A DNA stretch of 64,000 nt, from positions 124,001-188,000 of the forward strand of contig CP021222.1 in assembly GCA_003999685.1 (NCBI GenBank), read 5' to 3'. Made by a program: the position numbers and the translations under genes. The notes beneath the pieces were generated by a model. That model searched no databases, was not told where the DNA came from, and worked only from the letters and a program-made list of their open reading frames with translations. This document shows positions 3,833 through 58,500 of this stretch, in pieces. The number at the start of each line of letters is the position of its first letter. Position 1 is the first letter of the stretch. This stretch comes from Taiwanofungus camphoratus. Its lineage: Eukaryota; Basidiomycota; Agaricomycetes; Polyporales; Taiwanofungaceae.

Positions 3833-5164
3833 GTGTTCGTAGACGCGAACCGGAACCCAATCTATCCGAGTTCACCGCTTACCTGGGTCAGAACAACATT
3901 CAGACGACCAATCCAACAAGCACAGGCCAACCTCGCTACTTACTTCCAGCGAAACCCTGTCGACGAAGGAAAAGACATCGCCATCTTATTCACGGGAGGA
4001 TCGCAGGAAGCCACACCTATCAAACCCATTCCCGAAGGCTCGTTCACCGCCTCCACTTCCTGAACCCCGACTCCCACTCCATCCTCTTCAACACCCACTC
4101 CTATAATATCCGCACCCACACCTCGACGAGTCACAATGGCGACAATTGGGAACATGACCCAACAGCAGCTGGAGGCACTCATCGTTCGCCTCCAGACCCA
4201 ACAACAAGGGGCTCGAGCCCTCAAACTCGACATCCCTGCACCGGATCCATTCACCGGGCAAGGGGAAGACTTGGACCGATTTGTCCAACGGGTGGAGCAC
4301 TACTTCACTGCCACAAACAACACCAACCTCAGCGATGATGCAAAAATCGCATTCACGGTCGCCCTCATGAAGGGAGGGCAAGACGCACGCATATGGCGTG
4401 ATACGTTCTACGAACGAGCAGCGGGAGGCCAAGTGCCCTACAGGACATGGGACATATTCAAAGCATCCCTCAAGTTGGCATTCCCTGAACATGAGGGGGT
4501 GCAGCGAGCACATCAGGTGCTCATGGAATTACCAGCCAAGCAGCTGAACAAGAAAACGAAGGCCACTACCAAAATGTATGTGGAAAGATTCCGACTTCTG
4601 GCCGAAAAGGCAAAGTTGAAGGACGCGACTATCGATGCGAACGGGAACCGCACCGAGAACAACTACCCTACCCTTAGGGCGATATTCATCAAGGGGCTAG
4701 ACCGCCAGATCTACGCCACATTAGCTGGAAGGGCCACATCCGAAAGGCCGGACACCATGGAAAAATGGTACCGAGACGTTCTATCATTAGACGCAATCTA
4801 CAAGGGGATTGACCAGATCTCTAACGTCACCACCTCGGTCGATTATGGGGAACCCATGGACGTAGACGCAGTCGTCACACGACCGACACGCACCTCCTCA
4901 TCCGCCTCTAACAAGAAGCAATGGACGGATGGTTGCTCCTTGAACGAAAGCGAAAGGAAATACCACCGCGACAATAACCTATGCTTCTATTGCCATAATA
5001 GAGGACATTCGGCACGCAACTGTCGCAAAAAGGCGGCAGCAAGGACGAAGAACATGCCCAAGGTGCAAGACACGCGCTCTGTGGATTATCGCTCTTATAT
5101 CAAGAGCCTATCAGCTGACAAGAAAAGAGAGGTCATGGAAGAATTGGCCGCAGAGGATTTTTAA
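3833..5164 (+). other. gag region of the Gypsy element
   Basis: The main open stretch (4136-5164, 342 codons) is a retrotransposon gag with a helical capsid-like domain and one CCHC zinc knuckle, CYCHNRGHSARNC, near residues 288-300. A short leader coding stretch from 3833 precedes it. It is a virus-like-element part, recorded as a fossil component of the 3210-11246 element. Confidence 0.85.
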
Positions 5165-5217
5165 AGGGGCAGGGTGAGTCGACGCAACCGCTGCCCATTT
5201 CAGTTTCACTGTCCCGT

Positions 5218-5973
5218 GTGGTACTAGTAGTTCGGAATGAAAAGGCTTTACACATTCCGATTACTGTGGGACGAAAAGATGTCGAAGCGCGCGCCTTCAT
5301 CGATAGCGGCGCCTCTGGGATATTCATACACCCCAGATTTGTGAAGGAACACAACATCCGCACCGAGGCTTTACCCCGTCCAATGCCCGTATTCAACGTG
5401 GACGGAACGGCTAACAAACAAGCTATCATCACAAAGAGGGCCCTTCTCTCTTACAAGATAGGGGGAGAACCCCGATTCGTTAAAGCCTATGTGGCCAGCA
5501 TAGGAAACGAAGATATTATCTTCAGGCATACCTGGCTCAAACTGGAAAACCCGGATATCGATTGGAAGACGGGACGGGTGGAGCTTAAACACCGCATGAC
5601 TCTGGAAGAATCTAGGGAATGGAAGAAAAACCTACTAGAAACCAGAGCCAAACGACTAGAGATCAAGAGATTAATGGCAGAATCTCTCTCTAGAGGGATC
5701 ATTAAAGCTCGCCAGCCCTCAGTCGAAGAAATCAAGGACGAAGGAGATGGGGAAGTCGTGGACACCATGTCCCCGATCCTACCGACAATCGAAACCCCTC
5801 GTCGAACGACGCACCGAGACTCGCTGGTCTCAACCCCGGAAGAAAACTCAGTAAACGGCATCACACTCAAACAGGCCATGGAAACGATCGACGACGATGA
5901 GCTGGTCATAGCATTCATCGAAGGAGACGATCGAATCACAATGTATGGACGGGACTCACACCCCGTGTATTGA
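5218..5973 (+). other. Aspartic protease region of the Gypsy element
   Basis: A 251-codon open stretch contains the retropepsin signature AFIDSGASGIFI and a later W-L-x4-P-x-IDW motif typical of Gypsy proteases. It lies between gag and the reverse transcriptase, as the family requires. Confidence 0.85.
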
Positions 5974-6231
5974 GACACCCCGCTTACGGAGAAGAAATAC
6001 CCTCTCGATGGGGCATATCGACGCCTCGAAAATGGTCTCATCTGGCAGGTCAAGCACGACATCGGTCGACTCACCACGGCAACAGAATTAGCAATCAAGG
6101 AACATGCCAAGGAGAAAGAGAAACCCGTCAAGGAACTCGTACCTGAGTACCTTCACGATCTCCTACCCGTATTCGACAAACAAGCGGCAGCCCGACTCTC
6201 TAAGCATACGGAACACGACCATGAGATCAAC

Positions 6232-9045
6232 TTGAAGGAAGATTTCAAGGAATTCAAACAGTCCACTTATTCGCTCAACAGAGAGGAACGAGAGGAGCTG
6301 GATAAGTTCCTGGAAGAAAACCTTCAAAAAGGGTACATTCGTCCGTCGAAATCACCATTGGCTAGTCCGTTCTTCTTTGTAGAAAAGAAAGATGGGGGAT
6401 ATCGACCTTGCCAGGATTATCGGGAACTCAACGAGGGAACTATCAAGGATCGTTACCCACTCCCCCTTATATCGGAACTCCTGGAACGGCTGAACAAGGC
6501 GACCATCTTCACCAAGATGGATCTCAGACAGGGGTACAACAATGTACGGATCCGAGAAGGAGACGAATGGAAGGCGGCTTTCAGTGTTCCAGCAGCTGGG
6601 GAAGGACCTCCCTCGTTCTACGAATCCCTGATAATGTTCTTCGGGATGTGCAACTCACCGGCGACGTTCCAACGGATGATGAACACAGTCTTCGCTGACA
6701 TGCTCAAGGAGGGATGGTTGGCAATCTACATGGACAACATCCTTATCTACTCAACAGACCCTGAGGAGCATAAAAAACGAACGCGGCGAGTTATCGAAAG
6801 GCTCCGGGATACCGACCTGTATCTCAAACCGGAAAAATGCAAATTCGACGTGCAAGAAGTCGAATTCTTAGGCATGATCATTAGACCCGGACAACTCGCC
6901 ATGGACCCAGTCAAGGTAGCCGGCATTAAAGACTGGCCGATACCTAAGAACCTCAGAGAGGTTCGGTCGTTCATCGGGTTTGGAAACTTTTATCGTCGGT
7001 TCATACATAGGTTCTCGCATCTGGCCCAGCCTCTGATCTCGCTTACGCGAAAAGACGTCAAATGGCACTGGGACAACGAACAGCAGGAGGCATTCGAGAC
7101 ACTGAAGAAAGCTTTCCTGGAACAACCGGTTCTATTGATGCCTGACCCGGAGAAACCGTTCGCGCTGGAAACTGATGCATCGAAGTTTGCCACAGGCGCT
7201 GTCCTCAGACAAAAAGACGATAACGGAGATTGGCACCCATGCGGTTATATCTCCCAAAGCATGACACCGGCGGAACGAAACTACGATGTTTACGATCGGG
7301 AACTTATGGCGGTCATGAGAGGGCTCAACGAATGGAGTCACCTCCTCATCGGTAGCCCGTATCCAGTCATGATTTACAGCGATCACAAGAATCTGACATA
7401 CTGGAAGACGGCACGAAATCTAAATCGAAGACAAGCACGATGGGCTCTGTGCCTGTCCGAATTCGATTACAGACTGGTTCATGTACCCGGCACACAAATG
7501 GTGCAAAGCGACGCGCTCTCTCGACGCCCCAACCACGACAACAGTTCATCAGACAACCAGGATGTAACCGTCCTACCAGACAAAGTATGGGCAGCGGCAA
7601 TTGACACGAGTCTTAGAGCCTCCATCGCGGAAGCATGTGTAAATGACTCGATGTATACGAAAGGGATGCGCAGTGCACGAAACGGCTCAAACGACCACTG
7701 GACAATTCGAGACGGAGACCTCCTCTACGATAATTGGGTGTATATCCCCCTGAACGAGGATCTACAGCGACAAACGGTCTCGAATTATCACGACCTCCCC
7801 TCCGCAGGCCACCCTGGAATTCAGAAAACTCTCGCATCGATTCGACGAGACTACTGGTGGCCCGGAATGGCTGACTTCGTCACGCGATACGTCAAAGGCT
7901 GCGGCACTTGCCAACAAATGAAAGTTAACACACACCCTACCCGACTGGCCCTACTCCCGATCAAACCCGCGCAGCACGCCACTCCGTTCAGCACATTCTG
8001 CTGCGATTTCATTATGGATTTGCCAACTTCGGAGGGCTACGATTCAATTTTGGTCGTTGTGGACCATGACCTTACGAAGGGGGTAATTTTCATTCCATGC
8101 AACAAGACGATTGACGCATCAGGAACAGCCGAGGCATTATATCGCGAGGTATACAAGTGGTTTGGTCTTCCAGACAAGATCATTAGCGATTGGGGGCCAC
8201 AATTCGCATCAAAGGTATTCCAGGAACTCTGCCGCATGACCGGAGTCAAGTCGGCTATGAGCACGGTGTTCCATCCTCAAACGGATGGGGAGACAGAACG
8301 AGTCAACCAGGAACTGGAGATCTACCTGCGATGCTTTACGAGCAACAACCCGGATAAATGGTCTTCCTTACTCAGCGCAGCACAATTCGCTCACAACTCA
8401 AGGGAACATTTGACAATCAAGGTGTCACCGTTTAAAGTCATGATGGGTTTCGAACCGCGAGGAATTCCTGTTATACACAAGGGATCGGACACGCCCGGTG
8501 CAGCTTATCGCCTGAAGAACCTCCAGAAGATAAGGGAACAAGCACATACGGCGATGGAGCTAGCCCAGGCGGTACTGGCAAAACGGATCAAACTACCGGG
8601 GAAGGGTTTTCGCAAAGGTCAACAGGTCTGGCTCGACTCTCGGAACCTAAAACTGCTGTACCCGTCCAGGAAGTTAGCACCCAAGAGAGAGGGACCATTT
8701 GAAATCATCGAAGTCCTAGGCCCGGTGTCATACAAACTAAAACTCCCGGAGACTTGGCGGGTACACCCCGTTTTCCACGCTGCCCTTCTATCACCGTATA
8801 CGGAAACGGAGATCCATGGCCCGAACTACATGAGGCCACCCCCGGAACTTATCGAAGGCGAAGATAACTACGAAGTCGAAGCTATCATCAGACATCGGGA
8901 GAACTTACGGAAAAAATGCCGCGAGTATAGGGTCAGGTGGAAAGGATATTCTTCGGCAGATGACTCATGGGAACCGGAAGCAAATCTAGCCGGTACTGCG
9001 GAGGAGCTCCTGGGAGCATATAAGGAGAGGAAGAACTTAAGCTAA
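6232..9045 (+). other. RT / RNase H / integrase / chromodomain region of the Gypsy element
   Basis: A 937-codon open stretch. Reverse transcriptase motifs include FTKMDLRQGYNNVRI and YMDNILIYS (the YxDD-type box). RNase H begins at TDASKFATGAVL. Integrase has the HHCC zinc-binding block (HPG...CGTCQQMK) and the DDE core, with DFIMDLP, SDWGPQF and a later glutamate in ETERVNQEL. The last 60 residues form a chromodomain (YEVEAIIRHR...YRVRWKGY...SWEPEANL), which targets integration to marked chromatin in relatives. Confidence 0.93.
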
Positions 9046-26868: not shown

Positions 26869-29708
26869 TCAACGCCTGCCCGTTCGATCTATACGAGGTA
26901 CTACTCGTGACCGCAGACTCAGCGTGGCGGCAGCCCGCGTTCCAGCGGGAGGGGTATACGGAGTCTGTTTCTGCTCTTCCGTCGCCTGTTTCTTCTTCTC
27001 ACTCGCACGAGTGCCTGGCATCGGAACCGTATCCGGATCTGAAGTTGTCGACCCCATGGTCGCCCTTCGCCGCAAGTCGCTAGCACCGAGGGGTGTCAGA
27101 GGATTTGGTCTTGTGGCAGACGATCTGCGGGGAGAATGTACGGCTGGTGTCTGCGGGTATCTTTGAGCACCAGGCATACGAGTCGCAGAGCCGCTGAAAC
27201 TAGGAGCCTGAGGACCATCGTCGTCTCGTTCTTGCTGTTTACTCGAGCTCAGAGTGACGAACTTCGCGTCGGAGATGGCAGAATTCGAGTTACTAGCAAA
27301 GCTTCGCACACTAGGCAATAAGTTCTGGTGCACACGTTCGTCATCGCTGTCCAACTCTCCATAAGGATTTTTCTGGCGCCCATTTGAAGCAGCACTAGCT
27401 ATGTCGCTCCTTGATGGACTCTTACTTCGCATAAGCTGCTGTTCCACGGCATCTTCCTCTTCATATGTTCCGCCGACTAAAAGCTGGGGGTCGATCCCGG
27501 ACTGCGTGTTCAGAGTGTCGGCAGCCATCAGGCCCTGTCGCTCTTCGAGTAGTTGCTCCTGGTAAGCCTCATCGTACGCCATCACCTGAACCTCATTGGC
27601 CTTGCGCTTTCCTTTGTCCTTCGACAGGCGCTCTTCAAAGAAACGGTCAGGGTTAGGCGCTACTTTTCGAGCTCCTAGAAAAAGTACAATTTAGGGAATC
27701 GTAACTCGGTGAATGCCTTTGACGAACACACCAAGTGATGGTAGACCCTCGGCGACTTTGTTCCTCCTTCGTCTAGCAGCTGTGAGCTTTGCTTGCGTTT
27801 CAGTCATCACCCTGGAGGTTCGACTTGCAGATGTCCCACCGCCTTCGCCCGCCTCCCGAAGTTTCTGCATATAAACCGGACGAGATCTCGCACTAGGTGA
27901 TACCTGATTTGGACGTGGCTGGGACGGCCCCGCCACTTTAGGTGCATTTTCATCGTATTGTTCCTCTACCTGAGTGGGTCCACCGAAAATGTCATCCGCC
28001 TCTCCTGGGACAGTGTGATCTCCGCGTAGTTGAGTGGGCACAGGAGCGACAAGCGTTGCTTGGGAGCTCATAGGGACTTTCGACCGGTGTTTACTAAGAG
28101 CGGCATTAATCGTGCCGTTTTTGCGAAGTAGACGAGAATCTGTCTGCTTGCTCTTGCCTCTTGCCTGCTTCGCACTGGTATGCCTCTCCGGTGAAGACAG
28201 AAGCGATATAGGACTTTGCTCTCTGCCTGATGATCCGGCTATCTTGGCACCAGTCTCGAAATCTGATTCTAGGTAGTCGCTTTTCACGTCCGGTCGGTCG
28301 GATCAGGGCGGTATACAGATCAATCACAGATATACTTGACTTACTCTTCTTCTGCAAATGGAGCATGCTCGCTTATATCCTTACTAATCTCCCAAGATGG
28401 ATCAGTATCCGATTCATTAAGGACCGATGGTCGATGCAACACTCGGTGAGGCTGAGAATATGACCTTGCGCGCCGCATGCTACGTCCATGATCCACTGCA
28501 GAGGACCGTCGAGGACCTTGGTCTGTATGCCTTGATCTCTTTGCCGGCTGGATGGACGAGCGCCTTCGCCGCTCGCGCTCGGACTCATCATCTCTCAACG
28601 AGTGTTTTCGTTTCTGAGGCTTTGCGAGAAGATCTTCAGGAACCTGCTCCAACTGGGACTCGTTCAGCTCCCAATTGTCATATTCGTCGGTCTCATCATC
28701 GTCCTCTTCTTGCTGTCCAAACATGGAAGGATTCAGCAAACGGCTCCGTTCGTACAGACCTTTACCATCCGCGCGGGGAGGGTTTTCCTCCACCAGTTGA
28801 TCGATGATCGGGTCCATGCGTTTCACGTTGTTTCTGTAGCGTTCGCGCCATGACCACATAGTATGGCGCAGAGCCCATCTCCTGCGCTTAAACTTTTGGC
28901 AATTCAAGCTTCTGTTATGCACTAAATAAAAGGCGGGAAACGGTTGAGAACGTACATATTCTGCAGACTTTATTAGCCGTTTGTATATAGCGATACCTGA
29001 CCGGCCACCTTCCTCCTCGTAGGGAATCACAGAAGCTAGATATTCGCACAAATTCGCATCATCTTCTGCGGTGAAGGGTACTCGTCTACCCAAATATAAA
29101 TCGATTTATCGACCAAGACTAAGTGTAACATCACTCACCGGCGCGTACCACTTACATGACCTCCCATTCCTTTCCGCAGAGGTTTTTTGAAGTTCTCTTC
29201 GAATTTGCCAGTATTAATGCACATCTGCACGAATCTAGGGTCCTCCACCCAGACTGTCCTAGAGTCCCAGTATTTGGCTTCCAACATCTCTACGCCAATG
29301 AAGTTGACAAGAATCACATCTGCATCTTCTTCCTCGGAACATGTCGTTCCACCGCGACCCTTCGAACAGATGTCAGAGGAGCGGTCGGGAGGAAACGAGC
29401 TATAAAGCACCATTATCTTATCTGTCAGCACTTTGACCTGATCCGGCGACAGTTTACCCAGGCCAGCAGTGTACATGTGAAAGAATGCTGGTCTACCTTC
29501 CAGCATAAACAAATCCGCTTCCCCAGCCTCGGGCTGGCAGTTCGCGATGAACTTCAGTGACTAATGGAGTAAATGAACTCATGCACCGGAATTCTCTCAC
29601 CCGTGCGTTCCCCTGCCGGCCGATATTACGCCTACGGTATATACTTTCGTCATCCTCTTCCTCGACTTCTTGCGAATCGGAGCTCGTACCACGCGTCGTC
29701 CTAACCAT
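26869..29708 (-). CDS. rap1: Telomere-binding protein Rap1 (BRCT + Myb)
   Basis: Six exons join in frame to about 850 residues. An acidic N-terminus (MVRTTRGTSS...) leads to a BRCT domain: LFMLEGRPAFFHMY, then DADVILVNFIG and VEDPRFVQMCI. A Rap1-type Myb domain follows at once, VPFTAEDDANLCEYLA ... IYKRLIKSAEY, then after an intron RRRWALRHTMWSWRERYRNN. The BRCT-then-Myb order is that of Rap1/TERF2IP, a shelterin component recruited to telomeres by a TRF/Taz1 protein. The remaining 550 residues are low-complexity, with basic patches (KRKHS, ERERRRR) and phospho-site-like SP/TP motifs. I cannot see the usual C-terminal RCT helix bundle. The start lies 530 bp beyond the shugoshin stop, on the same strand. 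Orthology to Rap1 is by architecture, not by search. Confidence 0.85.
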
Positions 29709-30237
29709 TGTACAGTATAAGAGAGTAGCAGCTGTGAGCTTGATATAAGTACAGCCCCTGAATTGAAAGACGGCACGCTGAGTTACGCCGGACCGAGCCT
29801 GGTCAGTGGTGTTTGCCAATGCGTATGGCGCGTCGCGACAAGAAGCAGTGCTCGTGCCACCACTCGTGAACGCGAACTAATAGGCACGTGACCAGAGCCT
29901 CGATCGCGAGCTGTGTGTGCAAGTTGTGACAACTTGACTGGGAAAAGGCCATAATGAACTTGTACGAGAGGCCAGAGGCATCCGTGAATCGCACGAAGGG
30001 AAAACATACGAGTATAGTACTAGAGTCTAGGTGGGACGATAATCGTATAGTGGAGGCAACGACGATAACAATGATTCTTACTATACACTACTCTACTTGC
30101 GACGATGGCTAGAATACCCAATCATGCAATACGGACAATTGGGAAGAGGGATTATACTCAACGTGAGAAATCATGAAATAAACAGGTGTCGTGACGTTCA
30201 TAGCCTCTTCATTACTTGTCGGGTATGACCATAAATA

Positions 30238-32265
30238 CTAGACCGCCATACTATGTCGCCGGGTATCGTCGCCTTCAATGCGCCTCAAGGTCGAGCTGCC
30301 TTGAACGCTGCGCCTTCGCCCCTCGTTGATCCAGCTACTTCCGCGACTCTCCCCACCATATTCCGCGTCAGCTTGTGTACCTTCACTCTCTTCATCCGAG
30401 ACAAATACATATGCACGTGATTTCTTCCGCTTTACGCCCGCGATGGGCAATGCAGATGTCTCGCCATCGATCGTCGATGGTTGTGAGGCAGCAGTGGCCT
30501 CGGGCGACGTCTGCGACGAAGACCCGTCGCTGGAGGAAGTCGATGACCGCGGCTTCGATGTGGTTGTAGTAGGCGTCGGGTCTGGTTTTCGCATTTTCCT
30601 GTGACAAGGATCTGATCAACCGAAATGTGTCTATGGTCGAAAAGAGATCGTACGTGTTGAGCTTGGGTTCTGCGTAATTGATACTCTTCCGCACTCTCCT
30701 CTCTCGTCCCCCCACCAGTTCCGTTTCGGATGCGGCCGCCGGAAGAACAGGGCTTGATGCTCGTGGCGTAGGCAAGTGCAATGATTGTAGATTTGAACTG
30801 AGTTTCTGTGCCGGCATAGATAGGAAGGTTCGTGTAGCTAAAGAGGAACTTGTAAGAGCAGAAGTCGTGGCTAAAGGCAGATCATTATCTGGTGTATGTT
30901 GCCGCTCACGATCTACACGTATCATACCACACAGGTATGAATATGAAAAATCGTGGCGGGCACGCGAGTAATGAATTGAACTTACCACTTGCTGTGTCCA
31001 ACGTGGGTAGAACCGGATGACTACCTTGGGAGTTGGTTACATCCTTGAGCTTCGACTTGCTCCCTTCCGGAACATCGACAGGCTCTTCCAAACCCCTCAG
31101 TCTCTTTCTTTCTCGTTCTCTGCGCCGTTCAGTGTCGGCGCTTGGATCTCTCTCTTTCACTCTCTCTTTCTCCCGTTCCTTCCTCTTTTCCTTCTTTTCT
31201 CGCCTTGCCACGCTTTGTAAGATGACTTCGACCTCCTGCTCTTCATCACCGTTAGCAGGAATAACCTCTTCGTCCTCAACCAGCTTCAACTCTTTTCGTA
31301 AAGGTGGCCCAAACGCAGGACTTGGAGGGCGAGTAGGGACGACTTCGGTGCTGATCCCGCTTCGGGTCACCGTTGTGATAGACATACTGGTGAGTAGACC
31401 ACTCTGCCTCCTTGTTGGTTTACGTTTACCTGCATTGCTGAGCTTCTCGTCAAAGTTGATCTGAGGCAGATCGACAGAAGGTGGCGGTGAGATGACTCGA
31501 GTAGGAATTGGAAGACGTGAGTCCGAAGAGCGCGGTTTGGCCTTCTTCTTTCGGGCCGGTGTGGGACTTCTCTCCTCCTCTTCTTCCACGTCAGCATCAA
31601 GGTCTTCTGGAGAAGACATATTTGTCTCATCGTCCTCATAAATACCCGGAATAGTTGGTGGCCTTGCAAGGCGATTAGGGGGTGGTGATGCGCTGGGATC
31701 TGGCACTCGTCGTTTCGCACGCGGAGATGCAGACGGAGGCTCTTCAGGGCTGGAGGACCGACCGTGAGATATGTTGAATGATTTACGAATATGGCCAAGG
31801 TGTTTCACCAGGCTGTGTGTCTGCATACGTGATGTCAATACGCAGAAAGGAAAACGGTCATTCGCAGACAACAACGCACTGCGGCCTCCGCATCCGCTAT
31901 TATCTTTCGCGACCTTTCCCGTTCTCGTTTCAGCTGGGAGGCCAAGGCTATCTCAGACGCACGCAGACGGAGGTTTTCGACGTAAAGTGTTGATATCTGT
32001 GCATTAAGTTCCTCGATTCGAACACTGAGAGTGGAATTGAGCCTAGCGCAAACCAACGGTCAATATATCTCAAATGAACATAGTATGTCACTCGCTTGGT
32101 AATGTGCTTGTTGGCAAGAAGAAACTTCTTCTTGACTGCGTTCCGAATGCGAACGGTAAGTATGCAGTTCAGATGAATATGGTGCAGATACACACAGTTT
32201 TCGAACTCGAGGAGTGTGTCGTTTTGTCGAACATCGATTGATACACGCGACTGTCGCCTGCTCAT
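30238..32265 (-). CDS. sgo1: Shugoshin (centromeric cohesion protector)
   Basis: The start is MSRRQSRVSIDV at 32265; an upstream in-frame TTG is not needed. Short exons join into the N-terminal coiled coil: TLLEFENFKKKFLLANKHI, TKLNSTLSVRIEELNAQI, then YVENLRLRASEIALASQ. This is the Shugoshin_N domain, which dimerises and binds PP2A. The intron at 32043-32095 is GC-AG (AA|gcgagt...ctag). A long disordered Ser/Pro region and a highly charged KEREKERVKERD stretch follow. The basic Shugoshin_C motif is clear, ERRVRKSINYAEPKLNTKMR, formed across an intron; in relatives it binds phosphorylated histone H2A at centromeres. The family protects Rec8/Scc1 cohesin from separase until anaphase. N- and C-terminal signatures together make the call firm. 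Confidence 0.9.
32043..32095 (-). other. GC-AG intron in sgo1
   Basis: No GT donor keeps the coiled coil in frame at this point. Splicing AA|gcgagt to ctag|GCTC gives ITKLNSTLS, which matches the expected Shugoshin_N heptads. The nearby GT option (CGA|gtgaca) shifts the frame. Confidence 0.65.
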
Positions 32266-41147: not shown

Positions 41148-44100
41148 ATGTCTCTACCTCAGAGTAGCTCGTACGTAGAAGGGGTCTGTCTGGCTGCATA
41201 TAAATGTACTGACACATCCGTCTAGTCATTTCTCAGAAGAGGACGACAAATATCTCATTCGCTTCCTTGCCAAGTACACTCCCGACGGGAGATATCGAAG
41301 CGGGAACGTTATCTATCATAAACTGGAGGAGAACGTAAGACGTCCCATATTGTCCAAGAATTTTCCCACTTACATGCCTTGTGTTGATCAGGGTGAACGC
41401 AAGTGGCCCTGGTCGAAGCACCACACCTGGATGTCCTGGCGCAACCGCTATGTCAAGCAGAAGGATTATTTCGACCAAGAGATCAGGCGGTATCAGAAGA
41501 GACATGGCATCGACCGCAATCGCGGGCCGCCACCTACACCTAGGGCGACGCCCAATGGGAATGCGCGAGTCGCGTTCACGGCCGAGGACGACAGCCATCT
41601 CGTGGTCTACCTAGCTAAGCACAGCACGAGTGCTAAGGGTAGGTTGGGAAACTCGCTATACGAGACGCTCGTAGCCAACGTGAGTCCCATGCTCTTGCGA
41701 CTCGCTGTATACTAACCCGTATGTTCGTTTCCAGGGAGAAGGCAAGTGGCGTTGGGCTGAACGTCATCCGTGGAGGGGGTGGCGCGAGAGATACAGGAAT
41801 AACCGGCCTGAATTTGACCAGCGGATTCTGAACTGGCAGAAAAGGCACGATACCTATATTCCGTTGCAGACCCCTGTCAAGAGAGGCATGCGGAAGCGCG
41901 CGAACGCGCACCCAGAAAATGAAGGGGAAGATGAGGAGCCTGTAGTGAAACAAGAAGAAGAGGAGTCCTCTTTCAACCCCGAGGACGACCAGTCAGTACG
42001 AGATGCGACCACGAAAGGAAAGGGGAAGGAGAGGGAGATGACATCTGAAAAGGAGAAAGGAAAGGAGAAACGTCGGAGGAGCGACGACCATACAGACGAA
42101 GACACTACGGACGGACGGAACAAGAGGCGGTGCGTGGACGGTTGTGAAGGCAGGAGTGACAGTGTGCGCCCCGAGCTTCTATCTCTTGTCGAGGCTCACG
42201 AGGAGGAAGAAAGTATGAGTGTTGCAGCACCCGGTCCCGGCCAAGAGGCGACCGTACTGGAGGATGGAGATCAACCTCTTTTAAATGCTGAAGGGCGGGA
42301 AGAGGAAGAGGAAGAGGAGGAAGAAGAGGATGGTCAGGGTCCTCCGGCATCCGATGATTATCGAGGAGAGATCTTGGAGAGTAATACAGAGGACGTGGCG
42401 CAGTCTGGTTCGGATACTCTACTCGCTGCTGAAAAGCTTACTGGGTTCAACGACAATGTCGAAGGAGAAGCGCAGGCTATGGACATCGATGTTGGACTGG
42501 AGTATTCAAGCCGGTACGTAATTAAACATAGCCTTATTCGTATCGATTATGTTGCAACTCTAATTCCTGCATTTATGATAGGCCCGCGTCTCACGAGGCG
42601 ACTCCTACCCCATCCTCTCGGGGTGTCGACCCGTCCGATAGACAGCTCTACCCCGAAGTCCTTTTGCGAGCTCCCGCCGCCGACAAGCCTTCGCTTCCTG
42701 GATTGGACCCTGCAGTGTTGACTTTGAACGCTCAAATACGCCAAACATCTGAGCAGGTGGTCCCGCAGGTGCCTGCTGATCCAGAAACCCTCCAGCTCGA
42801 GCAGCAGAAGCCAGTGCGAGCGACGCAGGGCCCAACTCCACCTACCAGTGTGATGGAGACACCGTTGCATTCTCCGCAAGTCAGGGGTGACAATGTGAAA
42901 CAAGGAACTGCCGAGGAAATCGCCTTGCGTCCTCATCCATCTGCTACAAAAGTGCAGATGTCATCCGATCTCTTTTCTATTGGGTATGGTCAAGTTAGAG
43001 AGAGTCACGTCGTGGATCAAGAAATGGCAGATGCGTCCTCAAATTGCGCTGCGGCTTTGACACGGAGAATCGTCTACGTTGCTCAGACAAATGCTGAGGC
43101 GGGCCCATCTAGTGCAATAATGACCACGTCGACCCCGAGAGCTCGCCAGCAGCGGAGGCCTCGGCTTGCAAGACATGAGTCTGATTGCTTCACTTCACTA
43201 AGTCCATCGCCCACGCGTGAAGCGGACATCAGCAGAAGCGATAGCCCAGCGGAACGACAGCCTAAGAGGGAACCCCCGCGACTTGATGAGGGTGCGTTCA
43301 ATAACGCGTTCTCAGATGCGAGGGGTAATCCCCGTGTGAGCGCATCCGGGAAGCGCTCCAGGCCGACGGGCATTGACGAAGACGAGGATGAGGAGAAAGC
43401 TGCTGAGTCCTCGGATAGCGGGGACTGGCCGCCTAAAAGGGGCAAGAGTAAGGGTCAAAGAGAACCAGTAGTGAGCATGCCGGAGGCTATTCAAGTGAAA
43501 TCGGAGCAAAAGGTGGTCACTATCAGGAAAGAACGGAAGGATGCACCTGTTATTGTTAGGACACCTGCTGCTCGGGCCTTAAACGCTCTTGCCAACGACG
43601 AACCAGTTCAAGAGCATCATGCCTTCAGCCAACCGTCTCAGGTGCTCCGACGGGCAATAACCCCTCCAGAATCTAGACCCCAGGCCCAGATACATCACCC
43701 ATTCAGTCAGCAGAGTCAAACGATTCCGGACCCATTGGGCCGACTGTCGTCTGCATTGTCCGCGTTGTCACGCACCGATATGTCAACTCGTCGTGAGGCT
43801 ATCGGGCCAGCTCTTCGATCCAACATCACTGGTATTGATATCTCTCGTGTTGAGCGGGTGCTAAACCGCGATGCTCATCTGCTCCAGGGTGCAAAGAGTG
43901 ACGAAAAACGGGCATCATCTAGTGCTAGCTCGGATGTGTTGCCTGTAGCTTCGTCCTCTGCTGGGCAGAGGCGTTCCGCGGTCCCATTCAGGATCACGCC
44001 CGCTCCTCATAGCCTTGCCTCTGGACAATCTGTGAACAGTGACTTGTTGCCTGTTGCATCTACTGAAACAGATCATGGCAACATAAACCGCGGCCAGTCT

Positions 44101-45174
44101 CGTGATAATGCCAATCGCGAGGGAGAGAAGGAGTCGATCTCTGTACCGTTCCCGAATGAACTGCCACACAGGTGGCATAAATTGGCGGATGTGGCGAGAG
44201 GAAACGAAGATTCACCACCAGAGGGACTGCATGCAGGTGACAGAGGCAGTATTCGGGTACGACAGTCTCTTCCCACATTTTCATATAGGCGGAACAGCAA
44301 TGGATCCCGTTTTCACTCGAATGCTAGGCCTTCATTGCGACGCAGGATATCAGATGGATCCATAAATCGATCCCAGACTCGTGCTATTTCAGAAGAACCT
44401 GACCCGCCTCTGAGCAGCAACGATGAATCGATTCTTCTCCAAGTTGGAAAGGAGTTGACTATAGAGACAATGTCAAATAATCACGGATTCAATCCAGAGG
44501 TCGTAAGCAAGCTATGGCGCGCAGCTGAGTCGTTGCCCTTGACCGACTTCATTCTGTGCAAGATGCGAGAAGCTGCAGAAAAAAAGGCTATGGAGTTACT
44601 GGAAGCTCATCAAACTGCAATGCAAGAACAAGATTGCTCCAAGGATGCAGCAGCTAGTCGTCGTGTAGACCGGCTTCCATCTCGGTCCTCTCCTTTGCGA
44701 AACCTTTCACCACTGAAGTACACCTCAATGGACTTTGAAGATGATGACGACACCAAATCAGAGTATTCGCCCCCAATGCACTCTCGAGCAGGCCAATTCA
44801 TAAGGCTCGTAAAAGCAGGAAGAGAGGATGAAGCATTTGCCAGAGAGATCAGTAGGGCTGGCGCGCGCTCATCTCCCAGTACGCCTTTCAATAGGCGCGG
44901 TGGAATAGTAGTGATTGAAGATGACGACGACCTCGATGAAAGTCAAAGCCAAGTCGAATTGTTACTAGAGCCGAAAGCAGAAGATGACATGGATCAAGCA
45001 TTTCGAAACTCACCTTCTCGCTCACGTCACAATGCGGAAGACGAGCACCTTGATGCATTCCAGCAAGCGGTGAGGCACGGCAACTTCAAGGACTTAGAGG
45101 AGACAATAGGTCCGGGATCTGTCAGGGTTCTGGCAGGTAAAATGCTTGACAAGATTCTAAGCCGGACTACGTGA
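41148..45174 (+). CDS. Twin Rap1-type Myb-domain protein
   Basis: Five exons (41148-41170, 41226-41334, 41392-41679, 41735-42513, 42582-45174) give 1263 residues. Two Rap1-Myb domains stand in tandem. The first is HFSEEDDKYLIRFLAKY ... VIYHKLEEN / GERKWPWSKHHTWMSWRNRY. The second is VAFTAEDDSHLVVYLAKH ... SLYETLVAN / GEGKWRWAERHPWRGWRERY. Introns 2 and 3 fall at the same codon of each repeat, so the repeat arose by tandem exon duplication. No BRCT domain is present. After the Mybs come an acidic KQEEEESS region and about 800 disordered residues. Toward the end lies a helical block, NNHGFNPEVVSKLWRAA then TDFILCKMREAAEKKAM, that could be RCT-like. A SUMO-interacting-type motif, GGIVVIEDDDDLD, follows. 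A telomere or subtelomere DNA-binding role is inference. Confidence 0.8.
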
Positions 45175-55528: not shown

Positions 55529-58500
55529 ATGTCCGCCGCACTCAACAGTCGACCCGACACATCTGCCCAATCCATCGGTACCCACCCTGATTTTTCTTTC
55601 AACTCATTCGGTTCGGCATTCTCGACACCTGCTAAGAAACTCCGGATACCCTCATCATCATCCCAGACGACGGCCCCTTCATCCGCGCCACTCTCGACAC
55701 CATCGCCACCCAATGCATTATCATCGTTCTCACGACGTAAGGCGGACGATGCCACGCCCGCAGCGAGGCGGTTCGGTTTGTCCGGACACGAGGAGGAAGG
55801 TGAGGATACCGACGGGGACGTGCTCGACACGCCGGGTAAGGACAGACGATGGGACGACGTATCTGCTACGCCGGCACCCGGACGTCCCAAACGAACGCGC
55901 AGTGCCGGAGCGAAAGGTGGAATCAATCTCACTCTACGTGATCAGGAGAAGGTAAGTTTCGTCCTTTTCCATAACATTAGATGATTTCTTGCAAACACCA
56001 ATTTACTCTACAATGCTGTTGCATCATACCGATTGTCTCCCTCATTTTTGTACATAAGTCATAGGCCTCATTTTATTCTCCACTCTGCAGCACATCGACA
56101 GCCTGAAGAAGGAGAACTTTAATATCAAGCTCAAGGTCCACTTCCTCGAGGAGCGCCTTGCGCAGCTCGCTCCAGATCAAATTGATGCAGCACTCAAGCA
56201 GAACATCAATCTCAAGATCGAGGTGCAGCAGCGCGGAGTGGAGCTGAAGAGGCTGAAGAAGCTTGTGCTCAAGCTCGAACGGGAGCTCGAACGACTGCAA
56301 CACGGATCTGGCGGAGCGCAGTCGCGTGCGCGGGAGCTTGAGGAGAAGCTTGAGGAGCGCGAGCACGAGATTAGGGAGCTGAGGCGCAGGCGCGCTGTCG
56401 GACCAGACGACGCTGCGTTGAGACAGGTCGAAGCACGGAATGCAGAGCTCGAGGAGGAGCTGGAGAACGTGCGAGGGCTGTTAGAGGAGAACATGGATGA
56501 GATGGAGCGGCTAAGAGAGCTAGTAGAGCGGCGCGGGGACGAGTCAATGGGTGAGCAAGCAGAGGCGCGATGGCGGAGACGAGTAGAGGAGCTGGAGGGC
56601 GAGAACGAGGACCTACGGGCAAGGATGGACGACCTCGAGGAACTAATCACACAGCGAAACGACGAGAAAGAGGACCTGGCGGACGAGGTTGAAGCGCTGA
56701 AGCTCGAAATCGAGGATATACAGCGGCGAAGGGAGGCCGAGTCCATCGAACGCAGTCAGAGCCGTGCGCAGATACTAGAGGAGAGGGAAGAGCGGGAAGC
56801 GGTAGAAGAGGGTTTGAATGCAATACGGGACAAGTTGGCAGCAGCACAAATTGAACTGCAGCAGAAGGAAGACGACATCGAGATTAGGAACAGGGAGATT
56901 GAAGAGCTGGTCGCGGAGCACACACGGATTGTAGAGACCCTGGATGATGAGTGGAGAGGTGAAGTCGAGGAGACGAGAGGCCAAGTGGAAGAACTGCGTG
57001 ATGTACGTTTGTTTCAGTTTGCATTTCGCTGTATGTTCACGTTTTTGGAAGGTTCTTGAGCAACGTGACGCTGAAGCTAAGGAGCTTCGCCTACACATAA
57101 CTACCCTTGAAACCGATACTAATGACCTACACGATAAGTTCGAAGCAGCTTTGGCACATCTCGAACGGGAGTCCGAAGAGAAAGACGCCGAGATCGAAGC
57201 TGCTAATCGAGAGATCGAGAAACTTGGTGAGCAGGTATACGTCCTGGAGGAAGAGAACGAGCGCCTGAAAGAGGCGAGTGAGAGGCTGCGGGAGGACGAA
57301 GCGGTTGAAAGGGAACGTCTAGAAGCGTTATCGGCGGCACTTAAAGAGGTACAGTCTGCTTTTCTCCGAAATAAGTCATTATTTGGTATTTACGGTGAGT
57401 GTCATCAGAGAGTAGGCACGCTCAAAGCCCAATTGCAAGAGATGACAGACATGTATGAGCACAGCAATCAAGAGCTGTCTACTTACAAGTCGCAATCGGA
57501 GGAGCTTGCACAACACGTGGAGAATCTTGTAGCAGAACTTCAGCGCGAACGTGCCGCTCGTGAACGTATCACAGCAGACCTTGACAAAGCCGAGAAAGCC
57601 CAGCAGGAGTATGATGCCGCATTACGGCGCGAGCAACGCTCTCTCGAAGCCAAGGAGTCTGCATTGCAATCTGCCCTAAACGACCTTGCACGCACGCAGT
57701 CCCTGCTTACACAGCGCGAAGCGGATCTCGAAGCGGTTCAGTCCTCCCTTGAAGCCCTAGAGACGGAGTCGAAGAAGCTCGGTGAGACACACACGACCGC
57801 ACGCTTCTCATTACAGCTCGAAGTTGACCGGCTCAAGCGCGACCTGGAGCGACTCGAGGATGACCTCGCGCGCGCACGTAAGGAGCTTTACGACCGCGAG
57901 GGTAAGGGCCGCGAGCGCGACGGCGTGATCGACAAGCTCCATGCGGAGAATCGCGAGCTCTCATCCCAGCTTGCTGCGCAGACGCAGGCAAGGCTCAACG
58001 TTTCGGAGAAGCTTGATGAGGCACAGGCAAGTTTGCGTGGAGCGGAGGCAGAGATGACCTCGTTCCGGACGAAAGTCGCAGAACTGGAACAGCGGCTGGC
58101 GAAGGACCAGCGGTCATTACTGTCCGCTGAAGCTCAATATCGAGACCAGCTCACGGAGAGGAACACCTTGCTGCTGACAATCTATCAGTATATGGACAAG
58201 ATTCTCGGTGTAGACAAGACTCCGGTAAGTTGGTCTACACGTTCAATCGCCCATGACCAACAAGACTTCATCCTTGACAGAAGAAGAATGGTCAGGCCGA
58301 GACGAAGCCATTTACCAACTTCAGTGTCTTTCATGACAACCTCATCACTAGGCTCAAGGCGCTTAGCCAAATTCAATTGGACTTCGACAAGCGCGTCAAG
58401 GAGGCGGAAGCGCGGTACTCGGAGAAGCTGACTGACATGCGTAAACAACTCGACTTCCGATGGAAACAGATCGACAAGTTCGAAGCAGCGCTCAAGACCG

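Follow-up and report, generated by a model that had tools for sequence, protein, structure and literature searches.

The window analysed here, 64,000 nucleotides in length, corresponds to positions 124001-188000 of contig C3 in the 33.19-Mb assembly (15 contigs) of Taiwanofungus camphoratus. Among its contents are open frames that resemble retroelement gag and pol and finish in a chromodomain-like part (4064-9045, forward strand, recognised by eye) and a coiled-coil gene (56058-58431, forward strand) with the centrosomin N-terminal motif Cnn_1N (E 4.5e-22). The window also holds two genes of the Rap1 Myb family. The gene under study, G3, has the following features:

41148..45174 (+): two-Myb Rap1-family gene (G3), 5-exon spliced model, 1263 aa, PF08914 64.1 bits in two stretches
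41230..41460 (+): Myb repeat 1, aa 10-67, PF08914 47.1 bits alone, split by the intron 41335-41391
41335..41391 (+): phase-0 intron within Myb repeat 1, 57 nt, retention leaves the frame open
41575..41800 (+): Myb repeat 2, about aa 106-162, PF08914 37.0 bits alone, split by the intron 41680-41734
41680..41734 (+): phase-0 intron within Myb repeat 2, 55 nt, retention shifts the frame
41873..44391 (+): long region in which Pfam recognised no domain (aa 187 to about 1003), including the intron 42514-42581
44392..45171 (+): C-terminal 260 aa, predicted helical at low confidence (model pLDDT 52)

Gene model and domains of G3

The spliced model of G3 consists of five exons (41148-41170, 41226-41334, 41392-41679, 41735-42513 and 42582-45174, forward strand), which together encode 1263 amino acids plus a stop codon. 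All four introns are of the GT..AG type with lengths of 55-68 nt, and the last exon is a 2.6-kb open frame without an internal stop, whereas the other two frames contain 36 and 58 stops. The start of the model is an ATG that was picked in a preliminary description of the locus. Between 40358 and this ATG, the stop-to-stop frames on the forward strand all fall short of 80 aa, a criterion that short upstream exons could escape.

When the whole G3 protein was compared to Pfam, Myb_Rap1 (PF08914) was matched in two separate stretches with an E-value of 1.6e-17, and each repeat given alone scored above the curated cut-off of 27.1 bits. This HMM search had been proposed in the preliminary description, and its result agrees with the two Rap1-type Myb repeats that had been claimed there for one 1263-residue protein. 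Moreover, repeat 1 ends and repeat 2 begins within exon 3 (41392-41679), where the second half of the one and the first half of the other share a single open frame, so the repeats cannot be from different genes, a concern that had been raised at the same time. The core common to both repeats, as read from the sequence, is W-x3-H-x-W-x2-W-R-x-R-Y. A shared core had thus been recognised correctly, but its first spacing is one residue tighter than in the W-x4-H-x-W-x2-W-R-x-R-Y given originally.

At E <= 1 no other Pfam family was found on the G3 protein; BRCT, PF09197, the telobox Myb PF00249 and Rap1_C were all absent at this threshold. Repeat 2 given alone was not matched by PF09197 at E <= 5. 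Myb 1 lies at the very start of the model, from aa 10 on, in line with the earlier statement that the protein is without BRCT, which holds for the model with the same reservation about short upstream exons. As judged from its domains, G3 is a Rap1-family Myb gene but not a canonical Rap1.

Downstream of the Myb pair the protein continues for about 1080 residues in which Pfam recognised no domain. The start of this tail is acidic, with 64 D/E and 28 K/R between aa 187 and 400, and KRR clusters are located at aa 252 and aa 270. The product of G3 is presumably nuclear.

The layout of the last 260 aa recalls an RCT by eye, but sequence, fold and shuffle comparisons gave this candidate no support. 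Pfam gave no match at E <= 10, Rap1_C (PF11626) included, a sequence search of the PDB returned designed TIM barrels only (best E 0.011), and a single-sequence AlphaFold2 model yielded no fold match in Foldseek at E <= 0.001. The scores of human and yeast RCT models on this part were within those of shuffles. Similarly, the C termini of G3 and of the BRCT-and-Myb gene G1 described below aligned with a score of 28, compared to a shuffle mean of 30.3, and 1353 of 2000 shuffles scored at least as high. With the RCT unsupported, the usual partner-docking part of Rap1 is therefore not evident in G3.

Rap1-type Myb genes of the genome

Two further genes were found to encode Rap1-type Myb domains:

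26869..29708 (-): single-Myb Rap1-family gene G2, 12 kb from G3; 853 aa in the longest open model among the 32 listed
contig C1, L011 5471-3576 (-): BRCT-and-Myb gene G1, PF08914 46.3 bits, single Myb

A PF08914 search of the genome returned one other gene, G1. When the spliced Myb stretch of G3 was used as query, G1 was found with an E-value of 0.00197 and G2 only weakly (E 0.127 and 1.1); G2 was also shown by an open-frame scan of the window. The genome thus holds at least three Rap1-type Myb genes, a number that is a lower bound because the searches scored the best candidates only. In the preliminary description G3 had been called a second Rap1-family gene, which is true within the window but too few for the genome.

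The N terminus of G1 matches BRCT_2 with an E-value of 7.9e-5 and 23.3 bits, which is under the cut-off of 27.3 bits. Its model contains one intron positioned from the reading frame and another that requires a GC donor. G1 shares the Myb family and the intron place with G3 and differs from it by the weak BRCT_2 match and the single Myb. It is probably the canonical Rap1 of this genome, for which it is the best candidate. In the first 403 aa of G2, the part given to Pfam, one Myb was found with 27.2 bits for PF08914, barely over the cut-off. The N terminus of G2 is BRCT-like by eye, and no BRCT was called there by Pfam. G2 is adjoined by a Shugoshin-like gene (30226-30945, reverse strand, with an upstream exon frame to 31952), in which the Shugoshin_C motif (PF07557) is split by an intron and was scored from joined exon pieces (E 3.4e-8).

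In the gene models, all four Rap1 Myb domains are interrupted by an intron of phase 0, in each case within the loop that joins helix 2 to helix 3. The intron is located 3 residues past a conserved leucine in three of the four domains and 6 residues past it in G2. This shared place points to common descent, and we infer that the Rap1-Myb genes arose through duplication. Within the core, repeat 2 of G3 matches the Myb of G2 at 31 of 62 positions and repeat 1 at 25 of 62. In the full-stretch comparison, however, both pairs reach 33 of 78. Since the core favours G2 while the full stretch ties, and only four short rows were compared, no duplication order was assigned for repeat 2.

Telomere repeat and a Tay1-like gene

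The usual telomere repeat has six letters; here it has five. No (TTAGGG)4 was present in the genome on either strand, whereas (TTAGG)5 was counted 478 times on the forward and 422 times on the reverse strand, with 0 matches for the reversed control. When the terminal 150 nt at both ends of contigs C1-C14 were inspected, at least ten TTAGG units were found in 27 of the 28 ends, the exception being the right end of C5. Over all 28 ends the repeat units amounted to 584 TTAGG, 12 TTAGGG and 6 others. Contig C15 (150,773 bases), which is without the repeat at either end, was excluded from the 28 ends. TTAGG blocks were also observed up to about 21 kb inward from the ends of C1 and C2 (L012-L028, L088-L100). 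A review counts basidiomycetes among the fungi that keep TTAGGG (excerpts of PMC4416457). The porcini Boletus edulis has been reported to have (TTAGG)n telomeres (excerpts of PMC12134998), so the TTAGG telomere has a precedent.

On contig C12 near 450.6 kb (L087) lies a Tay1-like gene with two PF00249 Myb domains and a telobox-like VDLKDR at an exon end. The corresponding piece, spliced at junctions chosen by eye, scored 65.9 bits for PF00249 in two stretches. When it was searched against the PDB, the Myb domains of TRF2 and TRF1 came first (E 3.2e-7 and 4.9e-7, respectively), and these are the best solved relatives of its first Myb. The layout of this gene is that of Tay1, a telomere-binding protein of Ustilago maydis (excerpts of PMC7952879 and PMC7744550). 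The product of the gene on C12 is likely a duplex telomere binder. As it could already serve in this role, no further duplex binder would be needed, which counts against a telomere-binding G3.

Searches of the genome for TRFH (PF08558), Rap1_C (PF11626) and POT1 (PF02765) gave no match, and the control genomes gave none either, so these empty results do not demonstrate absence. A telobox DNA pattern matched the genome once, out of frame within a retroelement-like frame. The telobox of the Tay1-like gene is split by an intron and was missed by this pattern, which is therefore no test of absence.

Possible role of G3 and comparison with known systems

The Myb repeats of G3 are basic, with a net charge of +6 for repeat 1 and +4 for repeat 2; the Myb domains of G2 and G1 each carry +1. 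A profile built from the four Myb domains was compared to solved structures, and the human RAP1 Myb (1FEX) was the best match with an E-value of 0.00045, full-length human RAP1 (8RD4) being matched with E 0.03. Budding-yeast Rap1 (1IGN, E 2.1) followed after two chains that are unrelated (E 0.18 and 0.25). The match to 1IGN is at the helix HTENAWRDRFRKF, where human RAP1 reads HSWQSLKDRYLK. Helix 3 of the G3 repeats (H-T/P-W-x-x-W-R-x-R-Y) is nearer to HTENAWRDRF, a helix of yeast Rap1 as solved in complex with DNA, than to HSWQSLKDRY of human RAP1. This likeness to yeast covers a short stretch and, at E 2.1, falls short of significance. The yeast helix presumably contacts bases. Basic repeats and a yeast-like helix 3 are consistent with the direct DNA binding that the preliminary description had envisaged, which they do not prove, and the paired Myb domains probably bind DNA. 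In a plain phmmer search with the Myb stretch, designed TPR proteins came on top (E 5.6e-6) and 1FEX followed with E 0.035; the TPR matches were ascribed to chance similarity between short helices.

Structure prediction, which had also been suggested for the repeats, was not counted as support. The AlphaFold2 model of Myb 1 has a pLDDT of 67 with helices near the expected places, but no solved structure was matched at E <= 0.001, and none of the 12 structures listed at E <= 10 is a Myb. The model was made from the contiguous translation, which retains the 57-nt intron, and the resulting 19 extra residues may be to blame for the missing fold match.

We tentatively propose, at a probability of roughly 0.45, that G3 is a duplicated two-Myb Rap1-family factor that binds DNA at telomeric chromatin. 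A duplication in the Rap1 family would have given rise to a paralogue with a tandem PF08914 Myb pair at its N terminus. The two basic domains, separated by some 20-40 linker residues, would jointly bind double-stranded DNA in the manner of the budding-yeast Rap1 pair, and the long tail would recruit partners. The likeliest site of action would be telomeric or subtelomeric TTAGG chromatin, beside the Tay1-like duplex binder and the BRCT-Myb Rap1.

Alternatively, G3 may be a protein-interaction scaffold that does not read DNA and is brought to the telomere by a partner, for instance the Tay1-like protein. In fission yeast and mammals, Taz1 and TRF2, respectively, recruit Rap1 in this way (excerpts of PMC6510891), and both the Tay1-like telobox gene in the genome and the long G3 tail without recognised domain would fit such a role. 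We consider it doubtful, as G3 contains two Myb domains, both of them basic, and the RCT, with which fission-yeast and mammalian Rap1 dock, is unsupported.

G3 could also be a Rap1 duplicate that lost its BRCT and acts off telomeres as a sequence-specific regulator of transcription or chromatin. The several Rap1-Myb genes of the genome would allow for this, and the yeast Hansenula polymorpha offers a parallel. There, the Rap1 paralogues stem from a gene duplication with divided labour, in which only Rap1B recognises telomeric DNA directly while both Rap1A and Rap1B have sites in ribosomal-protein gene promoters (excerpts of PMC6510891). We hold this role to be unlikely. That G3 is a functionless locus, whether a decaying duplicate or an artefact of gene modelling, is highly improbable: retaining the intron of repeat 1 would keep the frame open, but the long last exon free of stops that abound in the other frames, the GT..AG introns of ordinary length and the scores of both Myb domains above the PF08914 cut-off all argue against it.

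Among known systems, human RAP1 (TERF2IP) has a Myb of the same family as G3, as reflected by the profile match to 1FEX. However, it combines a single Myb with BRCT and RCT and reaches the telomere via TRF2 (excerpts of PMC6510891), whereas G3 has two Myb domains. Tay1 and Teb1 of Ustilago maydis, Yarrowia lipolytica and fission yeast resemble G3 in their two N-terminal Myb motifs and long C-terminal part (excerpts of PMC7952879). Their Myb motifs are TRF-like, in contrast to those of G3, on which PF00249 was absent at E <= 1, and the genome encodes a separate Tay1-like gene. In the literature matches listed, no title or abstract opening described a two-Myb Rap1 in basidiomycetes; most subscription journals were outside the scope of this search, and novelty is not proven by it. 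Table 2 of PMC4839565, in the part available, lists ascomycete Rap1 homologues, several with two DNA-binding domains (including those of fission yeast and Taphrina), and no basidiomycete Rap1. Relatives of G3 were not found in prokaryote and virus contig collections, which is uninformative on other fungi.

Like G3, the Rap1 proteins of budding yeasts (S. cerevisiae Rap1; H. polymorpha Rap1A and Rap1B) contain two Myb domains each. They also have BRCT and RCT, whereas in G3 a BRCT was not found and an RCT is unsupported. The second Myb of budding-yeast Rap1 is of the PF09197 type, which defines the direct-binding two-Myb type. G3 shares the tandem pair with this type, but both of its repeats are PF08914 and no PF09197 was detected on it at E <= 1.

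The duplicated Myb of budding yeast reads telomeric DNA with one 5-bp half-site per Myb (excerpts of PMC6510891 and PMC4416457). That the TTAGG repeat is also 5 bp long is suggestive and no more. It would take a further step, which we think improbable, to propose that a basidiomycete lineage passing from TTAGGG to TTAGG built its own telomere-binding two-Myb Rap1 by duplication and BRCT loss. This would be a second origin beside that of the budding yeasts, again accompanied by a change of the telomere sequence. If true, the co-occurrence of a two-Myb Rap1 and an altered repeat in a basidiomycete would allow one to ask whether a change of the repeat pushes Rap1 into direct binding repeatedly.
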